Source: Streptomyces sp. SCUT-3
GTDB lineage: Bacteria; Actinomycetota; Actinomycetes; Streptomycetales; Streptomycetaceae
Assembly (NCBI RefSeq): GCF_014083985.1
Contig: NZ_CP046907.1
Coordinates: 3,018,001 to 3,082,000 of the forward strand
Reading direction: 5' to 3'
Length of the DNA stretch: 64,000 bases
Each line of letters starts with the position of its first letter. Positions within the stretch are counted from its first letter, which is position 1. The position numbers were made by a program, and so were the translations under genes. The notes under the pieces are model-generated. The model was given only the letters and a program-made list of their open reading frames with translations, did not search any database and was not told the DNA's origin. Positions 8,377-31,723 of the stretch are shown one piece after another.

Positions 8377-9009
8377 TCAGCAGCCCTCGACGGGAGAGGG
8401 GGAGGGCGAGACCAGCGCGGCGAGTTCCTTCTCGGCCTCCTTGACGGGGGCGAGTCCGGTGAACGCCTTGCCGATCATGAGGTCCACCGACGGGTCCTCG
8501 TGCCTGTCGATGATGTCGGTGCGCGCACCGGCGAGGTGCGTGCCGAGCAGCTTCAGGGCCCGCTCGGCCCCGGGGCCGCCCAGCAGCAGCGCCGACTCCT
8601 TGACCTTCTTGTCGTACTTGGCGGGGGCGTTGTCCACCTCGCCGATCGCGAAGCCGCGCTTCTCCAGTGCTTCCGCGGTCTTCTTGGCCAGACCGTCCTT
8701 CGTCGTGGCGTTGTAGATGTTGACCTTCACCTTGCCCGGCTTCGGCAGCGCGATCGCCGAGGCCGAGGGGGACGGGGAGGGCGGGGTGACGCACGCGGCG
8801 CGCTTGGAGGCGGCGCCCGTGCCGGCTCCGCCGCCGGTGAAGACGTCCAGCAGTTGGACGGTTCCCCAGCCCAGCAGTCCCACCGTGCAGACCGCCGCCG
8901 CGGCCAGCACGACGATGCGGCGCCGGTTGCGTGGACGGCGCATGCGCGGGTACTGGTTGCCGGTGATTCTGTACTTCCCGCCCATACCGGGGGGAGTGAG
9001 CATGCTCAT
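8377..9009 (-). CDS. LytR C-terminal domain (LytR_C) membrane-anchored protein
   Basis: 210-aa protein: a short cytoplasmic basic head (RMRRPRNRRR), one transmembrane helix (about residues 32-53), a Ser/Pro linker (SPSPSAS), then a LytR_C domain (KVKVNIYNATTKDGLAKKTA, GFAIGEVDNA) outside the membrane. It lacks the LytR-CpsA-Psr catalytic domain, so it is not itself a wall-polymer ligase. ATG 9009 is preferred over 9003 because AGGGGG lies 11 bases upstream. It may act at the cell wall; the role is not known. Confidence 0.8.
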   Translation of the reverse strand: MSMLTPPGMGGKYRITGNQYPRMRRPRNRRRIVVLAAAAVCTVGLLGWGTVQLLDVFTGGGAGTGAASKRAACVTPPSPSPSASAIALPKPGKVKVNIYNATTKDGLAKKTAEALEKRGFAIGEVDNAPAKYDKKVKESALLLGGPGAERALKLLGTHLAGARTDIIDRHEDPSVDLMIGKAFTGLAPVKEAEKELAALVSPSPSPVEGC

Positions 9010-9229: not shown

Positions 9230-9526
9230 TCAGCCCAGTTCGAGGACGCGCGCGTGCAGCACCTGGCGCTGCTGCAGCGCCGCCCGCACCGCGCGGTGCA
9301 GCCCGTCCTCGAGGTACAGGTCGCCCTGCCACTTCACCACGTGCGCGAACAGGTCGCCGTAGAACGTCGAGTCCTCCGCGAGCAGCGTCTCCAGGTCCAG
9401 TTGCTGCTTGGTGGTGACCAACTGGTCGAGGCGCACCGGGCGCGGTGCGACATCCGCCCACTCACGGGTGCTGGAGCGGCCGTGGTCGGGATACGGCCGC
9501 CCACTTCCGATGCGCTTGAAGATCAC
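9230..9526 (-). CDS. VapB-family antitoxin-like protein, no toxin partner visible
   Basis: 98-aa protein from GTG 9526 (MIFKRIGSGRPYPDHGRSST). The family is called VapB-like in actinomycete annotations, but no PIN-domain VapC is nearby, so it is either an orphan or misnamed. The C-terminal half (KWQGDLYLEDGLHRAVRAAL) is the best conserved looking part. It precedes the LytR_C gene on the same strand by 220 bp; the AT-rich stretch 9055-9100 in that gap may hold the promoter for LytR_C. Confidence 0.65.
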   Translation of the reverse strand: MIFKRIGSGRPYPDHGRSSTREWADVAPRPVRLDQLVTTKQQLDLETLLAEDSTFYGDLFAHVVKWQGDLYLEDGLHRAVRAALQQRQVLHARVLELG

Positions 9527-9710: not shown

Positions 9711-11255
9711 TTACTCGGTCACGCGGCCGTGGCCGTCGTGCAGCCCGCCGCCGCTGCCCGCGTCGCCGTCGGTGGGCACCGACTCGACCGGCTCGGAGAG
9801 CGTGGAGATGTCGTGGGCGTAGCGGCCCACGGCGTCGGCGATGACGTCGACGTTGACGTCGAACGCCTTCATGTCGACGTTGTCGATGTCGTCGCAGGCC
9901 TGGTGGTAGCAGGGGTCGTAGGCGACACCCGCCTCACCGCCGAACTTGGCCGCCTGCTCGGGCGTCTTGATGCCCTCGGCGCCGGTGAAGGTGCCGCCCG
10001 AGGGAATGCCGATCTCGATGAACGGGCCGTAGTCGGAGCGGCCGGTGAAGTCGGTGCCCTCGTGCGGGATCGACTTCGAGTCGAGGAAGTCGGTGATGCC
10101 CCTCTCCAGTTGGGCGGAGCCCTCGGGGCCCGCGCCCGCCCCGACGCCGTCGGAGTCGTCGCCGTCGTAGACGAAGTAGCCGGCGTTCGGCGAGGCGATC
10201 ATGTCGAAGTTCAGGTACAGCTTGATCTGCGCGCGCTGCTCCTCGGACAGGCCGGCGACGTACGCCTCCGAGCCGAGCAGGCCGAACTCCTCGGCCGACC
10301 ACCAGGCGAACCGCACCTTGTTGGCCGGCTTGGCCTTGCTCTTCGCCAGCTCCATGGCCACCTCGACCAGGCCCGCCGAACCGGAGCCGTTGTCGTTGAT
10401 GCCCGGGCCCTCGGAGACCGAGTCCAGGTGGGCCCCGAGCATCACCGTCCGGTCGGCCGAGCCGCCGCGGGTCTCGGCCGTGAGGTTGTAGGTGGTGCGG
10501 TCCTCGCGCAGCTCGCGGATGTCGAGGGTCACCTCGACCCCGCCCTGCGCGGCCTCGGCGGCGAGCGCCTCCCCGTCGGCCATGCTCACCCCGCCGGTCG
10601 GGATCCGGCCGGCCCCGGGGTCGCCGATGGTGCCGTTCAGGGCGCCGTCGGTGTTGTTGTAGATCACCGCGCCGACCGCTCCGGCATCGGCGGCCGCGGC
10701 CTGCTTCTGGGCGAAGCTGCAGGTGCCGCGCTTGACCAGCGCGATCTTCCCGGTGAACGTGTCGGAGGCGTAGTCGTCGGCCTCGCAGCCGGTGGCGTTC
10801 CCGGCCGGCAGCGCGGCCAGCGGGGCGGTGATCCCGCCCTCGGGCCCACTGGCCGTGTAGGTCATCAGCTTGATCGGGACCTCGCGCGGCGAGGGCGAGA
10901 CCACCTGCAGCTTCTCGGCGATCGTCTCGGTGTAGACGTAGTCGAACGCCTGCCGCTCCACCTTGTACCCGGCGGCCTTCATCAGCGCCTCGATGTACGC
11001 CACGGACATGTCGTGGCCGGCGGATCCTGCGACGCGGGTGCCGTCGTTGCGGTCGGCTATCGCCTGGAAGACCTTCAGGTGGCGGAAGGCGTCCTTGGCC
11101 GTCGCCCCCTTGACCAGGGTGCGGGAGAGCTTGTTCCCCTGCTGGGCGGGCGAGGGCGCGGCGGTGGCCGGGCCGGCCAGGAGCAGCGGTGCCGCTACGG
11201 CGGCCGCCGCCAGGGCGGCCGTGGCCGCGGCGGTGGCGCGGTTGCGCAAGGGCAT
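9711..11255 (-). CDS. Secreted M28 family metallopeptidase (aminopeptidase) with PA domain
   Basis: 514-aa exported zinc aminopeptidase. ATG 11255 follows AAGGGA by six bases. Signal peptide: MPLRNRATAAATAALAAAA with cleavage around ATAAPSPA. A PA insert domain (CEADDYASDTFTGKIALVKR, GTCSFAQKQAAAADAGAVG) precedes the catalytic core. Zinc ligands and catalytic residues are in GAHLDSVSEGPGINDNGSG (His, Asp), WSAEEFGLLGS (Glu-Glu), FDMIASPN (Asp) and YHQACDD (His). Organisation matches the S. griseus-type aminopeptidases. The acidic C-terminal tail is short. Confidence 0.95.
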   Translation of the reverse strand: MPLRNRATAAATAALAAAAVAAPLLLAGPATAAPSPAQQGNKLSRTLVKGATAKDAFRHLKVFQAIADRNDGTRVAGSAGHDMSVAYIEALMKAAGYKVERQAFDYVYTETIAEKLQVVSPSPREVPIKLMTYTASGPEGGITAPLAALPAGNATGCEADDYASDTFTGKIALVKRGTCSFAQKQAAAADAGAVGAVIYNNTDGALNGTIGDPGAGRIPTGGVSMADGEALAAEAAQGGVEVTLDIRELREDRTTYNLTAETRGGSADRTVMLGAHLDSVSEGPGINDNGSGSAGLVEVAMELAKSKAKPANKVRFAWWSAEEFGLLGSEAYVAGLSEEQRAQIKLYLNFDMIASPNAGYFVYDGDDSDGVGAGAGPEGSAQLERGITDFLDSKSIPHEGTDFTGRSDYGPFIEIGIPSGGTFTGAEGIKTPEQAAKFGGEAGVAYDPCYHQACDDIDNVDMKAFDVNVDVIADAVGRYAHDISTLSEPVESVPTDGDAGSGGGLHDGHGRVTE

Positions 11256-23185: not shown

Positions 23186-24133
23186 GTGTACCGGTTCCTC
23201 CTGACCCCGCGATGGCTGGGCATCAACCTGTTCACCGTGCTGGCCATCCCGTTCTGCGTGTTCATGGGCATGTGGCAGCTCGGCCGCTTCGAGGACCGGG
23301 TCGACACGCACCGCGAGGCCGAGTCGCGCCCGGCCGTGAGCAGCGCCCCCGCCGTCCCCCTGGACGACGTCCTCCGGCAGGCCCCCTCCGGCCAGTACGT
23401 GGAGGCGGAGGACTCCGGCCGCCCCGTCACCGCCTCCGGCCGCTACGACACCGAGAACCAGTTCACCGTCCCCGGGCGGACCCTGCACGACGAGCAGGGC
23501 CACTACGTGCTCACCCTGCTGCGCACCGAGGGCGGCGACGGCCCGGCGCTGCCGGTCGTGCGCGGCTGGCTCCCCGGCGAACCGGGGGACCCCGCCGACG
23601 TCCCGGCGCCCCCGTCCGGCGAGGTGACCGTCGAGGGGTACGTCCAGGCCGCTGAGACCGTCGACACCCAGGAGGCGCACACCACCGGGGGCCTGCCCGA
23701 GGGGCAGGTCGGCATGGTCTCGGCCGCGTCCCTGGTCAACATCGTGCCGTACCCGGTGCACAACGTCTGGATCACCCTGCCGGAGGCGGAGGGGGCCATG
23801 GAGCCGGTGCCGCCCGTCGCCCCGAAGGGCGGCGGGCTGGACGTCAAGGCGTTCCAGAACCTCGGCTACACCGGCGAGTGGTTCGTCTTCGGCGGCTTCG
23901 TCGTCTTCATGTGGTTCCGGTTCTTCCGCCGCGAGGTCGAGGTGCAGCGCGACATCGCGCTGGGACTCACCGAGGACCCCGCGGCGGAGGGCCCGCCGCC
24001 CGGCGGGACCGGCGACGGCCCCGGACCCGACTCCGACTCCGGCCCGGACGGGCCCGCCGGGTCCGAGGGTCCCGACGGGCCCGCCGCCTCCGGCGCGCCC
24101 GCGGGGGCTCAGCCCGAGGCCGCCGGCAGGTAG
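23186..24133 (+). CDS. SURF1 family cytochrome oxidase assembly protein
   Basis: 315-aa membrane protein for maturation of the aa3 cytochrome c oxidase. GTG 23186 (MYRFLLTPRWLGINLFTVLA). Two transmembrane helices frame the protein: residues 10-30 (with MGMWQLGRFEDR just after) and about 230-250 (GEWFVFGGFVVFMWFRFFRR). The extracytoplasmic loop carries the SURF1 motif VRGWLPGE. The Pro/Gly/Asp-rich C-terminal tail overlaps the 3' end of the convergent S9 peptidase gene by 25 bp. Confidence 0.93.
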   Translation: MYRFLLTPRWLGINLFTVLAIPFCVFMGMWQLGRFEDRVDTHREAESRPAVSSAPAVPLDDVLRQAPSGQYVEAEDSGRPVTASGRYDTENQFTVPGRTLHDEQGHYVLTLLRTEGGDGPALPVVRGWLPGEPGDPADVPAPPSGEVTVEGYVQAAETVDTQEAHTTGGLPEGQVGMVSAASLVNIVPYPVHNVWITLPEAEGAMEPVPPVAPKGGGLDVKAFQNLGYTGEWFVFGGFVVFMWFRFFRREVEVQRDIALGLTEDPAAEGPPPGGTGDGPGPDSDSGPDGPAGSEGPDGPAASGAPAGAQPEAAGR

Positions 24134-26098: not shown

Positions 26099-27541
26099 TC
26101 AGCCCTTGACGACGCCGAGCGGCACCAGCCGCGCCACCCTGCGGCACAGCCCGGCCCCCTCGCTCGCGCGCACCACGGCGTCGATGTCCTTGTACGCGCG
26201 CGGCGCCTCCTCGGCGAGCCCGCGCCACGACGCCCCGCGCACCGCGACGCCCCGGGCCTCCAGCTCCGCCCGCAGGGCGCGGCCGTCGACCTCCCGCGCC
26301 GCGCTGTGCCTGCTGCGCACCCGGCCCGCGCCGTGGCAGGTCGAGTGCCACGCGCCACCGCCTTCCACACCCACCAGCAGGTACGAGGCGGTGCCCATGG
26401 TGCCGGGGATGAGGACGGGCTGCCCCACTGCGGCGAGGTCGTCCGGCAGGTCGGGGTGGCCGGGCGGCAGCGCCCGGGTGGCCCCCTTGCGGTGGACGCA
26501 CAGGCGCACCGCCCTCCCGGCGACGTGGTGGGTCTCGATCTTGGCGAGGTTGTGCGAGATGTCGTACACCAGGTCCAGTCCGTGGCCCGTCGTCTCCTCG
26601 AAGGCGTCTCTGGCGGCCTCGGACAGCAGCTGCCGGTTGGCCCGTGCGTAGTTGGCCGCGGCGGCCATCGCGCCGAGGTAGGCACGCCCCTCCCCGGACC
26701 CCGCCGGCACGCAGGCGAGCTGACGGTCCGGCACCTCGATGCCGTACCGCGCCGCGGCGCGGTCCATGGTGCGCACGTGATCGGTGCAGATCTGGTGGCC
26801 CAGACCCCGGGAACCGCAGTGGATCATCACGCAGACCTGCCGCTCGCGCACCCCCATCGCCGACGCGGCGGCCCGGTCGTGGACCGTGTCGACCGCCTGC
26901 ACCTCCAGGAAGTGGTTGCCCGATCCCAGGCTGCCGACCTGCCCGAGGCCGCGTTCCACGGCGCGGACGCCGACCTGCCCGGGATCGGCGCCGGGCAGGA
27001 CCCCGCCGTCCTCGCAGCGCGCCAGGTCACGGGCGACGCCGTGTCCCCGCTCCACCGCGTGGCACGCCCCGCCGACCAGGACCTTCTCCAGCTCGGTGCG
27101 GCCGATCTGCCAGACCCCGCCACGGCCCGGCCCGCGCGGGACGCGCCGGTCGAGTACGTCCATCAGCTGCCCCAGGCGGGGGAGGAGGGCGTCCCGTTCG
27201 CACGGTGCGGCGAGCAGCCGCACCCCGCACGAGATGTCGAAGCCGACGCCCCCGGGGGAGACGACGCCGCCGTCCGCGACGTCGGTGGCGGCGACGCCCC
27301 CGATGGGGAAGCCGTACCCCCAGTGCACGTCTGGCATGGCGTACGAGGCCTCCACGATCCCCGGCAGCGTGGCCACGTTCACCACCTGCTGCAGCGCCTG
27401 GTCCCCGGCCGCCTCCGGGAGCAGCGCCCGCGAGGCGAAGACGACGCCGGGCACGCGCATGCTCCCCCGCCGGGGGATCCGGAACCGGAAGGGGCCCTCC
27501 TCGACGACCTCCACGGTCGCCCCCGTCACGGTCGCACCCAC
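26099..27541 (-). CDS. rtcB: RtcB family RNA ligase
   Basis: 480-aa GTP/Mn-dependent ligase joining RNA 2',3'-cyclic phosphate or 3'-phosphate to 5'-OH ends, used in RNA repair. Metal ligands and active site are visible: [25 protein letters not shown] (Asp, Cys), [22 protein letters not shown], and the guanylylated histidine in [12 protein letters not shown]. The archease gene lies 117 bp upstream on the same strand. Position next to Hsp20 suggests a stress role. Confidence 0.95.
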
Positions 27542-27569
27542 CGAGATCGCCTCCTCACGCCCCGCGGGG

Positions 27570-27657
27570 CCTGTTCCCGCGGGCCTGTTCCCGCGGGCCC
27601 TGCTTCCGCGGGTCCTGTTCCCGCGGGCCCTGCTTCCGCGGGCCGGGTCCTCGCGGG
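27570..27657. repeat. 14-15 bp tandem repeats between archease and rtcB
   Basis: About six units ending in CCGCGGG or CGCGGG (CTGTTCCCGCGGG alternating with CCCTGCTTCCGCGGG) fill the gap between the archease stop and the rtcB start. Confidence 0.85.
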
Positions 27658-27658
27658 C

Positions 27659-28093
27659 TCACACGTCGAGCGTCACCGAGCAGGTCCAGCCCTCCGGCCC
27701 GCCGGAGAGGGACAGCCCGTGCAGGGTGACGGCCTTGGGCGCCGCGCCGATCACCGTCAGCGTGCCGGCGTCGGCCATCAGCAACTCGGCCCGCAGCGCA
27801 CCCCGGACCTCGGTCAGGACGACGTCGACGGGCACCTCGTCCTCGGTGTCGAGCCGGTACACGACCTCCTCCAGGAGGTCCACCAGCAGGTCCTCGTCGC
27901 GGTCTGCACGGAGTTCGACGACGCGGCTGCGGACTCCCCTCGCCCCGGTGAGGTCGACGAACGCCTCCGCGACGCCGCGCACCGCGTGCGCCATGCACTC
28001 CTCGCGCGTCGGCGCCCACGCCCGGACCGTCAGGTCCGCGGTGTGCGGAACGCCGCAGTGGCCGCCGCGCAGCGCGGTGCCTCCCGCTCCCAT
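27659..28093 (-). CDS. Archease, RtcB activator
   Basis: 144-aa protein that helps RtcB turn over its GMP intermediate. ATG 28093 (MGAGGTALRGGHCGVPHTAD). Metal-binding features of the family are present: the early HTAD (about residues 17-20), DRDEDLLVDLLEEVVYRLD (about 73-91) and the C-terminal D (SVTLDV). A longer in-frame start region is Pro/Gly-rich and not credible. Confidence 0.93.
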   Translation of the reverse strand: MGAGGTALRGGHCGVPHTADLTVRAWAPTREECMAHAVRGVAEAFVDLTGARGVRSRVVELRADRDEDLLVDLLEEVVYRLDTEDEVPVDVVLTEVRGALRAELLMADAGTLTVIGAAPKAVTLHGLSLSGGPEGWTCSVTLDV

Positions 28094-28290
28094 GACCGCC
28101 CGCCTCCCTGCCGGCCCTGCCGCCTTCCCGTCGGACCTGCCGGGCCCGCCGGACCTGCTGGGCCCGCCGACCGCGCCGGGCCCGCCGACCGGGAGGCCCG
28201 GCGCCGTACGCCGGGACGGGACGCCCCGGGACCGCCGCGGTACGACGGACAATCCGGTGACGCCCCGTCACCCGGGACGGTCCGACAGGG

Positions 28291-28776
28291 TCAGTCCCCG
28301 GACGTGATCTCGATGTGCCGGGGCTTGGACTTCTCCGCCTTCGGCACGGTCACGGTCAGCACGCCGTCGTTCAGGGCCGCGTGCACGTCGTCGGCCTTCA
28401 CGTCGGCGGGCAGCAGCGCCCGGTACTCGAACCGTCCGGCGCGGCGGGTGCCGCGCCGCAGGACGCCCGTGCGCTCGCGCTCCTTCAGCTCCCCGGCGAT
28501 GACGAGTTCGCGTCCGCCCATCGAGATGTCGATGTCGTCGCGGGCGACACCGGGCAGGTCGGCCTCGATCAGGTACGCGTCGTCGGTCTCGGTCATGTCC
28601 GCCAGAGGAGCCCAGGCCGCCATCTCGGCCATCGGGGCCGAACCGACTGCGGACTCGAACAGGCGGCTCATGCGGTTGAACAGGTCCTCGAACTCCGCGA
28701 GGGGATCACGCGTCCACGCGGGAATCCCCAACTCGCCTGTCGTGCCTGCTCGGTGACGTCGTACGGGAAGAGTCAT
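28291..28776 (-). CDS. Hsp20/alpha-crystallin family small heat shock protein
   Basis: 161-aa ATP-independent chaperone. ATG 28776 (MTLPVRRHRAGTTGELGIPA) follows GGAGGTGG. The N-terminal arm contains DPLAEFEDLFNRMSRLFE. The alpha-crystallin domain spans about 55-150 (YLIEADLPGVARDDIDISM to NDGVLTVTVPK). No HAIR or CIRCE element was found upstream. Archease and rtcB lie downstream on the same strand. Confidence 0.95.
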   Translation of the reverse strand: MTLPVRRHRAGTTGELGIPAWTRDPLAEFEDLFNRMSRLFESAVGSAPMAEMAAWAPLADMTETDDAYLIEADLPGVARDDIDISMGGRELVIAGELKERERTGVLRRGTRRAGRFEYRALLPADVKADDVHAALNDGVLTVTVPKAEKSKPRHIEITSGD

Positions 28777-28957
28777 CGGTACCACCTCCGTGGACCGCCG
28801 TCAGGACGGTTCCGTCGTTTCCATGCTTGCTCGGTTGCAGTACATCCGCACGCCCGGACCCGGCCCCCGGACCCGGCCCGGCGGTGCGCGCCGCCCACCG
28901 GGCCGGGCGCGGTTCCCGCGCCCCGTGCGGGCCGCCCGCGGTGCGGACTGCCCGGGG

Positions 28958-29386
28958 TCACGCCACCGGTTCGAGGAGGGAGCGCACGTCGCGCGGCAGC
29001 TGGTCGAGCACCGTCTCGAACTGCCCGGGCGAGACCTGGTGGCGCACGGCCTCGGCGACGGCGGGGGCGATCCGGGGGACGTCCGCGGGATCGACCCTGG
29101 ACTCCTGGGTGAAGCGGTTGACGTAGGTCTGGCGGTCGTACTTGACCGGCACGTGGCTGGGGTCCCAGCCGTCGTAGTACACGCCGCGCAGCAGTTCTGG
29201 GAGCTGGGCGGCGAAGTGGGCCGCCACGTCGACCGTGAGCCGGTCGCGCAGCGTGTGCAGCCAGGCGCGCAGCGCCCGGTTGGCGAGGTGGCGGTCCTCG
29301 GTCTCCATGGAGTCGGCGACGGCCTTCAGCCAGATGTTCGCCGTGTGGATGGCGTGCTCGAAGCCGTTGGAGTGCGTGGCGGTCAT
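28958..29386 (-). CDS. DUF2267 domain-containing protein
   Basis: 142-aa helical protein. ATG 29386 (MTATHSNGFEHAIHTANIWL) with GGAAGGGAAGG upstream. Signature segments: HLANRALRAWLHTLRDRLTV and LPELLRGVYYDGWDPSHVPV. The family is common in actinobacterial stress and hypoxia clusters; activity unknown. Confidence 0.9.
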   Translation of the reverse strand: MTATHSNGFEHAIHTANIWLKAVADSMETEDRHLANRALRAWLHTLRDRLTVDVAAHFAAQLPELLRGVYYDGWDPSHVPVKYDRQTYVNRFTQESRVDPADVPRIAPAVAEAVRHQVSPGQFETVLDQLPRDVRSLLEPVA

Positions 29387-29969
29387 GGGCCTTCCCTTCC
29401 GGTCCGCCCTGCCGGACGGTGCCGGTGCGGTCACGGCCGGAGGTGCGCGGCCGCTCCCCGGCCGTGCCGGGCCCGGCGGGAGGGCCGTCCGGGTTCACCG
29501 CCCTGCGGTGCCGGGAGCGGAGGTCCGTCGGGGCCGGCGCGGTGCCGGCGCCGGTGCGGACAGGGCCTGTTCCTCTGCCCGTGCGCCGTTCCGTTCCGTA
29601 CGCACGGAAGACCTGCGAGGTGGGCTCCCTTCGCCGGCATTGTCCGGATCAGGTGCTGGAGGTCGCCGTCCGGTCTCTCGACCTTCCGGCCTCTCAGCCC
29701 GGCCGTCGATCACCTCGGCGAGGACCAAGGCCCTCTTCCCCGAGGCTGCTCCGGTCGAACTCCCTCGCTCGCCCCGCAGGCCACTTACTACGCTATTCCC
29801 GGACGAAACGGGCGTCAAGGGTGAATTCCCTGATCCGGGCGAGTGATTTTCCGGAGCGGATGGAGACGCACGCGCAGACGCACGACCACGGCGAACCGGG
29901 GCAGAGGCCCGTATCTCCTCTGCCCCGGAAGGCCCCGGAAGGCCCCGGGAAGGCCCCGGGAGGGGGCCG
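29387..29969. other. Intergenic region with candidate DevR-like box, terminator and short repeats
   Basis: 583 bp without a gene. GGACCAAGGCCCT at 29722-29734 resembles a DevR/DosR-type half-palindrome 340 bp upstream of the DUF2267 gene. An 11-bp hairpin (29897-29907 with 29917-29927) and four GGAAGGCCCC-like repeats (29923-29961) lie just after the end of the next gene. Confidence 0.45.
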
Positions 29970-30197
29970 CTACATCCCCTGGGCGAGCAGCAGTTCGTGC
30001 GCCAGCCGGGCGCCGCGGGCCGCCTCCGTCTCCAGCCTGGTGTCCTCCGACGGGATCTCCTCCAGCCCCCGGGCCAGCGCCCGTAGTGCCTGGGCCAGGG
30101 TCTGCACCTGCGACTCCAGCAGGCGCAGCCGTTCCTCCGGGTCCTCGGCGGCCCGGCCGGCGCCGGCGTCCGGCTCCTGTGCGGAGTTCTGGGTCAT
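29970..30197 (-). CDS. Small coiled-coil protein
   Basis: 75-aa acidic protein (MTQNSAQEPDAGAGRAAEDP) with one long amphipathic helix, EERLRLLESQVQTLAQALRA, predicted to form a coiled coil. No family is recognised. It is 50 bp downstream of the hibernation-factor gene and likely cotranscribed with it. Confidence 0.6.
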   Translation of the reverse strand: MTQNSAQEPDAGAGRAAEDPEERLRLLESQVQTLAQALRALARGLEEIPSEDTRLETEAARGARLAHELLLAQGM

Positions 30198-30247
30198 CGT
30201 CGACCTCCGTCAACGTGCGGATGGTGTGCGGGTGGGCTGTGGACGGA

Positions 30248-31048
30248 CTACTCGACGGGCGCGATCAGGCCGTAGTGGCCGTCGTAGCGGTGGTAGAGGA
30301 CGTTTCCCCGTCCGGTCGCCCCGTCGGTGAAGAACACGAACGGGAACCCGGCGAGGTCCAACCGCTTCTCCGCCTCCTCCACGTTCATCCGGGGCGCCGG
30401 GAGCCCGCTCACGGTCAGCGGCACGGACACCGGGCCGATCCGGTCGGGGCTGGGGCGAACCTGGGCGAGCCGGTAACCGTCCGGACCGTCCCGGTAGACG
30501 ACGCTGTCCTCGCCCGAGCCGGCGTCCGTGAACAGGTGGAAGTCGTAGTCCATCTCCTCCATCTCGTAGACCGCCTCGTCCGGGGTCTCCCGGGCCAGGG
30601 AGAAGGACTTGTGGCGCACCACCTGCCGCTCCTCCACCGGACGGGGGAAGTAGTCGGGACGGTGCGTCGGCTCACTGTCGTGGCGCCACTCGTGCGGCTC
30701 CTTCGTCGGCATCCCGCCGCGCCGCGCCTCCCAGTCCTGCCGGGTCCGGCGCATCCTGGCCACCAGCCGGTCGTGCGGCAGGTCGACGGCCTCGGACATG
30801 GTCCCCGAGGCGACGTGCGCCCGCACCTGCCGGCCGTTGACGTCCAGGTTGGCCTGGGCGATCGCGGGCCTCTCCGTCGCGGGGTTCGCGGTCCGGGTCA
30901 GCCTCACCCGGGCGAACAGAACGGGTTCACGCAGCTGACCGGCCAGCTCCTGCACCTTGGAACGTGCGTACTCGACCGAGTCCTCCGGGACCTCGCCCCG
31001 GACCTCCACCTGGATCTCGGGAGTCTGCCGGACTGTCGAACGTTTCAT
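30248..31048 (-). CDS. HPF/RaiA family ribosome hibernation factor with duplicated C-terminal domain
   Basis: 266-aa protein predicted to bind the 30S subunit and inactivate ribosomes in dormancy. The N-terminal HPF domain is residues about 9-105 (EIQVEVRGEVPEDSVEYARS). After a linker there are two S30AE C-terminal dimerisation domains: 143-200 (RHKSFSLARETPDEAVYEME, FHLFTDAGSGEDSVVYR) and 207-266 (MNVEEAEKRLDLAGFPFVFF, NVLYHRYDGHYGLI). Ordinary long HPF has one. ATG 31048 follows AGGAGG-like AGGAT. Confidence 0.85.
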   Translation of the reverse strand: MKRSTVRQTPEIQVEVRGEVPEDSVEYARSKVQELAGQLREPVLFARVRLTRTANPATERPAIAQANLDVNGRQVRAHVASGTMSEAVDLPHDRLVARMRRTRQDWEARRGGMPTKEPHEWRHDSEPTHRPDYFPRPVEERQVVRHKSFSLARETPDEAVYEMEEMDYDFHLFTDAGSGEDSVVYRDGPDGYRLAQVRPSPDRIGPVSVPLTVSGLPAPRMNVEEAEKRLDLAGFPFVFFTDGATGRGNVLYHRYDGHYGLIAPVE

Positions 31049-31723
31049 GGCATCCTCCTGGCGTCGTTGCTTCCAGGCTCACCACTTCGCGGGCCGACCG
31101 GGCAGGGCCGAAGGTCCTTCCGCGCAGACCGGTCGACCCACGCGCCGCGCCGGACGCCGCGCCGCCGCGGGCCGGGGGCGGGCCGGGGAACCACTCGCGC
31201 CAGGGGCCCGGCGCCGCTTCCAGTTCCCGTCGGCCCTCTTCCGCGATCTGCGGGACGGCGCCCGTCGGCGCAGTACCCGCGCGTGCACCAGGCACAGGGC
31301 CGCCCCGCGCAGCAGCACCTCCCGCGACCTCCTGCGCTGCCCGCCGCCGGGCCGCCGTGCTCACGGGCGAGCCGCCGGCCCCGACGGCGACCACCGGTCG
31401 CACGATCCCGCCGCCTACAGGCGTGCAGGTCAGTACGGGGCGGTACGGGTCGGTACGGGGCGGCGCCCGACCGGGTCACGACGGCCGGGCACCCCCGGGG
31501 AGCCTCGTCTCCCCCCGGGGGTGCCCGGACCACCCACAGTGCGCCCGTCGCACCCCAATGCTGTCCCGCCCGCCCGTAGCGCGGCAGGGCCGAACCGCTC
31601 CGGGCCTTAGGGCCTTGTGGCCCCGACCCGTTCCCCCTTTGTCCCGGGCCCGTTCCCGTCCCGGGCCCGTCCCCCGTCGATCTCCGCCGGTCCTCCACCG
31701 GTTCCCGGCAGCCGTCCGACGGG
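31049..31723. other. Intergenic region upstream of the hibernation factor
   Basis: 675 bp without a convincing gene. On the minus strand AAGGACCTTCGGCCCT (31104-31119) resembles a DevR/DosR-type box 56 bp upstream of the hibernation-factor start. GGGCCTTAGGGCC (31602-31614) is a similar near-palindrome farther away. Confidence 0.45.

Follow-up and report, generated by a model that had tools for sequence, protein, structure and literature searches.

Riboswitches are usually treated as part of the mRNA which they control, with SreA and Rli55 of Listeria representing riboswitches that act as small RNAs, and we know of no example of this kind which involves a riboswitch for thiamine pyrophosphate (TPP). 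The parts of the published accounts drawn on in the current work report two TPP riboswitches in a reannotation of Streptomyces lividans, both located upstream of thiamine genes (PMC8079986), and describe the mycobacterial ribosome hibernation factor RafH as a protein whose C-terminal domain represents the repeated domain of the long hibernation-promoting factor (HPF), as a consequence of which 70S and not 100S ribosomes are hibernated, and whose induction runs through DosR (PMC10799931). These systems are compared here to a stretch of 64,000 nucleotides (nt) of Streptomyces sp. SCUT-3, named “the window” (positions 3,018,001-3,082,000 of a 6.08-Mb single-contig genome; coordinates refer to the window unless genome positions are indicated), which contains a conserved RNA resembling a TPP aptamer between a rafH-type gene and a gene encoding a DUF2267 protein. 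With a probability of roughly 0.58, this RNA is an independent TPP-sensing RNA gene which acts away from any leader, in an interval that would consist of three units (rafH with a coiled-coil gene; the RNA gene; DUF2267-hsp20-archease-rtcB) and not of one programme. The RNA and its promoter-like sequence are located as follows:

29610 to 29782, minus strand: putative free-standing TPP-aptamer-like RNA gene of 173 nt, recognised by its match to RF00059 (39.7 bits), by its own covariance model and by covariation
29790 to 29818, minus strand: promoter-like sequence of the RNA, being TTGACG (29818-29813), 17 nt, TAGCGT (29795-29790) and 7 nt to the RNA start

The TPP family RF00059 was the sole covariance match in this region (39.7 bits, E 4.5e-5; Rfam cut-off 54.3), no other Rfam RNA being found between window positions 24000 and 34000 with E values of 0.5 or less, and none of the copies scanned reached the threshold of any family in Rfam 15. 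The RNA is likely unannotated because it falls under this threshold. Its start (29782) and end (29610) were placed where conservation between copies stops. When a covariance model was made for the RNA itself (R1), the window copy, which had been used in building it, scored 174.9 bits. Across the phylum R1 also matches TPP-riboswitch-like RNAs (175 of 396 genomes at E 1e-4), where all but two of the matches listed are below 70 bits and many span model positions 19-160 only.

A covariance search of 150 genomes of the Streptomycetaceae retrieved the RNA from 29, across 8 of 17 genera, and a DNA search with 231 bases around it gave at least 66 bits in 102 of 394 family genomes, the rest being nearly all short weak matches; the RNA is therefore present in roughly one in five to one in four family genomes sampled. 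At 74 of 75 further places the full-length model gave at least 84.9 bits. Class-wide, 8 of 394 genomes contain the RNA, one of them outside the family, and it was found on two contigs of Catenulispora. The possibility of a mobile element found no support, as phage records gave zero matches and the plasmid matches comprised a single long one, to an Embleya replicon of 5.7 Mb, and one of 44 bases in Nonomuraea.

The comparisons given below are based on 136 copies, an uneven sample derived from two sequence-likeness searches from which L160, a decayed copy of genome G009, had been excluded beforehand. Counts given for 134 copies omit L259 (62 bits, P4/P5 lost) and L232 (a degenerate second copy), which are included in the counts for 136; a downstream gene was called in 134 of the 136. 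L259, also from G009, is a decayed copy in which the P4/P5 arm is lost and the closing stem and promoter are retained.

From 5′ to 3′ the layout of the RNA comprises an 11-bp stem, P1, joining both ends, the segment GAGYGAGGGAG, P2, P3 with a long variable arm, the CUGAGA junction, P3a and P4/P5. CUGAGAG, the J3/2 junction of TPP riboswitches, is present in all 134 copies, CCUGA in 132 and the joint P4/P5 pattern in 127, and nucleotides of the CUGAGA/P4/P5 type are those which we take to contact TPP in known structures. The 5′ segment, with C or T as its fourth base, also occurs in 134 of 134 copies, and GAGGGAG is thus present in all. A TPP-type structure drawn by hand on a MAFFT alignment of 31 sequences contains 42 pairs, with 96.2% of cells paired as compared to 34-55% when the structure is slid, and 17 of these pairs exhibit two-sided changes against a mean of 5.5 in shuffles. 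The same was seen in an alignment-free test, in which paired positions are located by counting from the termini or two anchors: P1 is paired in 98.0% of cells (118 with two-sided changes; 37-49% paired when slid) and P3 in 86.1% (52 with two-sided changes; 10-36% paired when slid). The alternative hairpin and the GGGCU/AGCCC helix obtained from energy folds display no two-sided changes; they might represent the state without ligand. One natural copy of 140 nt is without the long P3 arm (L037, 7986-8125, minus strand, genome G001); it is located approximately 1.5 kb from rafH and represents a ready minimal construct.

Upstream of the RNA, 130 of 134 copies possess the motif TAnnnT with its end 6-8 nt ahead of the start, as compared to 0.5% of random control positions, and the corresponding sequence of the window copy would represent a housekeeping-type promoter. 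A stricter scan of the region for consensus promoters and terminators found nothing, its consensus being tighter than streptomycete promoters. An imperfect palindrome (AGGGAATTCACCCT, window 29818-29831) abuts the −35 element in the window and has no counterpart at this location among the other copies listed.

The orientation of neighbouring genes was determined by means of a simple codon-based gene caller. The gene downstream of the RNA is convergent in 94 of 134 copies, at a median distance of 34 nt, and co-directional in 40. For ordinary TPP riboswitches examined with the same caller (30 loci, of which 5 were without core and 2 without gene call), the following gene is co-directional in 22 of 23 cases, 18 of these 22 being within 150 nt, and convergent in 1. 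A cis-acting riboswitch was therefore rejected as the general explanation, based on the geometry of the flanks; it may apply to single copies, including that of the window, for which DUF2267 follows. By eye, the neighbours vary with lineage, being a ferredoxin-like gene and a TetR-type regulator in many Streptomyces, and a cysteine desulfurase-like or GMC oxidoreductase-like gene in other lineages. Pfam analysis of seven example neighbours identified GMC oxidoreductase, class-V aminotransferase, TetR, ferredoxin, cold-shock, universal stress protein (USP) and NAD-binding/DUF2867 proteins, and no start resembling that of a thiamine gene was recognised by eye among the downstream genes. Look-alikes of gene starts that adjoin the RNA elsewhere are located in the window approximately 20 kb from its own copy, at 9230-9436 (as in Streptomyces contigs L114, L115, L148 and L149) and at 8377-8985 (as in Streptomyces contig L150).

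A subset of copies carries, in addition, a sequence typical of binding sites of the dormancy regulator OsdR/DevR. Since a loose DevR half-site pattern was useless (6,567 sites in the genome), a symmetric matrix was employed instead, based on the 26 S. coelicolor OsdR sites in Table 1 of PMC5069765, which obtain scores of 9.6-18.3 when each is left out in turn. At −54 to −48 relative to the RNA start, 12 of 136 copies possess a box of at least 10 bits (eleven at −50, one at −49), as compared to 0.05 expected; with the threshold lowered to 8 bits there are 14 such copies, the expectation being 0.2. Boxed copies are mostly from Kitasatospora, with few from Streptomyces. A gene for USP, RafH, a cold-shock protein (CspA) or the coiled-coil protein is present in the flanks of 8 of the 14 boxed copies as compared to 4 of the 122 unboxed ones, the window copy being one of these 4 (flanks were searched up to 3 kb, with at least 2.9 kb on both sides for 85 of the 136 copies and at least 1.4 kb for 124).

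Taking into account the promoter-like start, the conservation which ends at the closing stem, and the fact that there is usually no gene behind it, the RNA most likely senses TPP and acts elsewhere. Once transcribed, it could adopt the complete fold of a TPP aptamer, in which the 11-bp stem closes the structure by joining its ends. A plausible output is the GAGYGAGGGAG segment: when TPP is bound, its GGGAG would be drawn into helix P2, and without TPP this segment would be open for interaction with a protein or with another RNA, which might be an mRNA or, by its anti-Shine-Dalgarno end, 16S rRNA. In the minority of copies with an OsdR box, the RNA would be made in dormancy, and this subset would then tie coenzyme B1 status to dormancy and might link the RNA to ribosome parking. 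We tentatively propose, at odds a little short of even, a new class of leader-free TPP-aptamer RNAs with their own promoter and a permanent closing stem, which act in trans as reporters of the coenzyme level, perhaps addressing ribosomes or mRNAs by means of the Shine-Dalgarno-like GAGYGAGGGAG, and which are controlled by OsdR in Kitasatospora and a few Streptomyces, several being located beside rafH, USP or cold-shock genes. If true, this would show that there is a route from metabolite aptamer to independent sensor.

The other features of the interval are the following:

26099 to 27541, minus strand: RtcB RNA ligase (PF01139, 534 bits)
27659 to 28093, minus strand: archease (PF01951, 89.8 bits), with the start given by the gene call
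28291 to 28776, minus strand: Hsp20 small heat-shock protein (PF00011, 78 bits)
28958 to 29386, minus strand: DUF2267 protein (PF10025, 133 bits)
29722 to 29734, no strand: first DevR box of a first-pass annotation, corresponding to nucleotides 49-61 of the RNA, at the tip of the variable P3 arm
29896 to 29928, minus strand: terminator-like perfect hairpin of 12 bp without U tail, 3′ of the coiled-coil gene
29970 to 30197, minus strand: 75-aa coiled-coil-like protein, with all coiled-coil matches below cut-off
30248 to 31048, minus strand: rafH, encoding an HPF with duplicated C-terminal domain (PF16321, PDB entry 8whx)
31104 to 31119, no strand: OsdR/DevR-type box, AGGGCCGAAGGTCCTT, 14.4 bits, 56 nt before the rafH start codon

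Profile matches agree with the first-pass annotation, which had placed genes for RtcB, archease, Hsp20, DUF2267, a coiled-coil-like protein and an HPF on a single strand: all six are at the positions it gave, on the minus strand. For archease, ATG 28093 is the likelier start as compared to TTG 28252, and for Hsp20 the gene caller used here favoured a later start at 28671. The hairpin at 29896-29928 was missed by the terminator scan, which requires a T run. Short GC-rich direct repeats (cctgttcccgcggg and variants) were noted by eye in the gap between archease and rtcB (27542-27658). The genome also encodes a second, shorter RtcB paralog with 33% identity to that of the window (genome positions 3284133-3285239; L002, L070).

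The HPF of the window matches M. smegmatis RafH (8whx) over residues 12-265 of 266 (E 6.4e-86), with PF16321 scoring 106.5 bits in two stretches, i.e., a repeated S30AE C-terminal domain, and PF02482 scoring 21.9 bits, slightly below its cut-off of 23.7. Judged from these matches, it is a RafH ortholog. The stronger of the two PF02482 matches in the genome is located at 3,874,867 and is presumably the housekeeping copy. A second RafH-like HPF with 39-43% identity (656040-656786 of the genome; L069) is preceded, at 656896, by an OsdR box identical to the consensus at 16 of 16 positions, AGGGCCGATCGGCCCT. In one relative (L066, 9613-10408, minus strand, genome G007) rafH falls into two separate matches, one of which is interrupted by a stop codon, in a neighbourhood with matches to all six genes.

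The box at 31104-31119 ranks second among 63,985 window positions and its score is within the leave-one-out range, thus upholding the DevR/DosR-type site which had been suggested at this location. Among 33 RafH loci of relatives, which are the best-scoring matches and originate from 29 of 45 matching genomes, a box scoring 10 or more is present within 400 nt upstream in 22 and absent in 11; 10 of the 22 boxes sit at −72 to −69, with that of the window at −71. In control 400-nt segments of the same loci such a box occurs in 142 of 1,617, a conservative control because these loci contain neighbouring regulon genes, and the box counts are not independent because the species are related. A DevR-like response regulator is present at 11 of 36 RafH loci (1.3e-80 for an example against M. 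tuberculosis DevR, 3c3w), and the coiled-coil gene is close to rafH in 9 of 33. The SCUT-3 genome encodes an OsdR/DevR ortholog (477,004-477,705), with 81% identity to the DevR-like regulator near rafH in relatives and with three box-like sequences in its flanks (9.2, 16.9 and 14.5). Together, the RafH homology, the box 56 nt upstream and this ortholog support the earlier suggestion of a ribosome-parking factor under a dormancy-type regulator: located behind an OsdR/DevR box, rafH and the coiled-coil gene probably provide such a factor in hypoxia or nitric oxide stress. This suggests that the DevR-driven 70S-parking factor of mycobacteria extends to streptomycetes.

The reading of the RNA as an independent TPP-sensing gene has to be weighed against a number of observations. 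RF00059 is below its gathering score of 54.3 in 17 of 17 copies scored (39.7 for the window, 32.1-44.1 for the 16 others), and a strict three-part TPP-core pattern matches 75 of 136 copies only, failing mainly by AUACC for AUGCC and by the base after ACCUGAU. P2 contains a near-constant A-C mismatch and zero two-sided changes and P4 is invariant, so that neither provides covariation support, and P5 provides it by one pair. The minimum-energy fold of the window copy pairs GGGCU with AGCCC and uses the P2 and P3 strands otherwise, and its folding energy is 1.7 standard deviations below shuffles. The copies come from related species, and their counts do not represent independent events. In 19 of the 40 co-directional copies a gene lies within 150 nt. 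The window copy itself has no OsdR box (best score −11 at that position) and is followed by the co-directional DUF2267 gene, 223 nt downstream.

This last arrangement, together with the intact aptamer core and the fact that the strict promoter scan gave none for DUF2267, would suit a cis TPP leader of a DUF2267-hsp20-archease-rtcB transcript, as would the co-directional copies elsewhere. Nonetheless such a leader is unlikely, as the geometry of the window is found in just 10 of the 131 copies for which a gene was called on both sides, as compared to 94 of 134 with a convergent gene; the 223-nt gap contrasts with 10-56 nt from core to gene at the three canonical TPP riboswitches of the genome; conservation stops at the end of P1; and no downstream gene start was thiamine-like by eye, the Pfam analysis covering seven neighbour proteins. 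It is doubtful that the RNA represents a former TPP aptamer which now acts as a scaffold or protein-binding RNA without sensing TPP: the long closing stem would need no ligand, the 17 scored copies are all below the TPP cut-off and the invariant 5′ segment is new, yet 127-134 of 134 copies, according to the pattern used, retain the junction and P4/P5 core while the P3 arm and P3a vary, which suggests continued selection for ligand binding.

A single dormancy programme, with RtcB, archease, Hsp20, DUF2267 and HPF co-induced by DevR as the first-pass annotation had envisaged, is improbable. It has in its favour the OsdR box at rafH, the OsdR ortholog and two relatives which have rtcB and archease in the vicinity of both rafH and OsdR boxes: in L066 the stretch separating rafH from a divergent ftsH gene (encoding M41 peptidase and AAA domains) contains two boxes (15.5 and 17.9; 10504-10578), with coiled-coil, archease and rtcB genes following ftsH, and in L041 an hsp20 gene upstream of archease and rtcB is preceded by a box of 10.4. 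That association is nevertheless limited to 2 of 33 RafH loci (with approximately 10 kb examined on most sides). Within the window, the best score in the 300 nt upstream was 14.4 for HPF, 8.0 for archease, 5.7 for DUF2267, 2.2 for RtcB, 1.7 for Hsp20 and 1.6 for the coiled-coil gene, so that in these 300-nt segments no good box was found ahead of any gene other than that for HPF, and the hairpin and the RNA with its promoter-like sequence split the cluster. The other DevR box proposed, at 29722-29734, was discarded: the best 16-mer nearby scores −1.6 (rank 817) and the site is inside the structured RNA, which the first-pass annotation had overlooked. The convergent genes, at their median of 34 nt in 94 copies, could finally point to a boundary or antisense element acting on these neighbours; this is very improbable, as the neighbours differ by lineage (TetR-type regulator, class-V aminotransferase, GMC oxidoreductase), 40 of 134 copies are co-directional instead, and a metabolite aptamer would be unnecessary for such a role.

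With regard to the known systems, the rafH gene of the window corresponds to mycobacterial RafH (MSMEG_3935/Rv0079) in its match to 8whx, which spans its residues 12-265, its doubled C-terminal domain and the DevR-type box upstream, and differs from it in the streptomycete host, the coiled-coil gene which follows and the second RafH-like copy with a consensus box. The OsdR/DevR regulon of S. coelicolor and M. tuberculosis is comparable as to the box sequence, the regulator and, in relatives, the USP and RafH neighbours; the part of the regulon account drawn on here (PMC5069765) does not mention a TPP-aptamer RNA as a candidate member. In the open-access literature, which leaves subscription papers mostly uncovered, no title or start of an abstract among the matches listed describes a free-standing TPP-aptamer RNA.

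The RNA shares with the TPP riboswitch (THI element, RF00059) the CUGAGA junction, P3a and the P4/P5 core (ACCUGAUCCGG..AAUGCCGGCGAAGGGA), and the three canonical TPP copies of the genome have the same layout. Unlike a TPP riboswitch, RNAs of the window type appear free-standing, with their own promoter motif, an 11-bp P1 joining both ends, the invariant GAGYGAGGGAG and, in nearly all copies, a long variable P3 arm; all 17 scored are under the Rfam cut-off, and a downstream thiamine gene was not recognised. They are built on a TPP-type aptamer, yet are placed outside the TPP class of Rfam by their score, and in most copies would not act as a cis leader. With SreA and Rli55 of Listeria they would have in common the use of an aptamer beyond simple cis control, the ligand classes being different.

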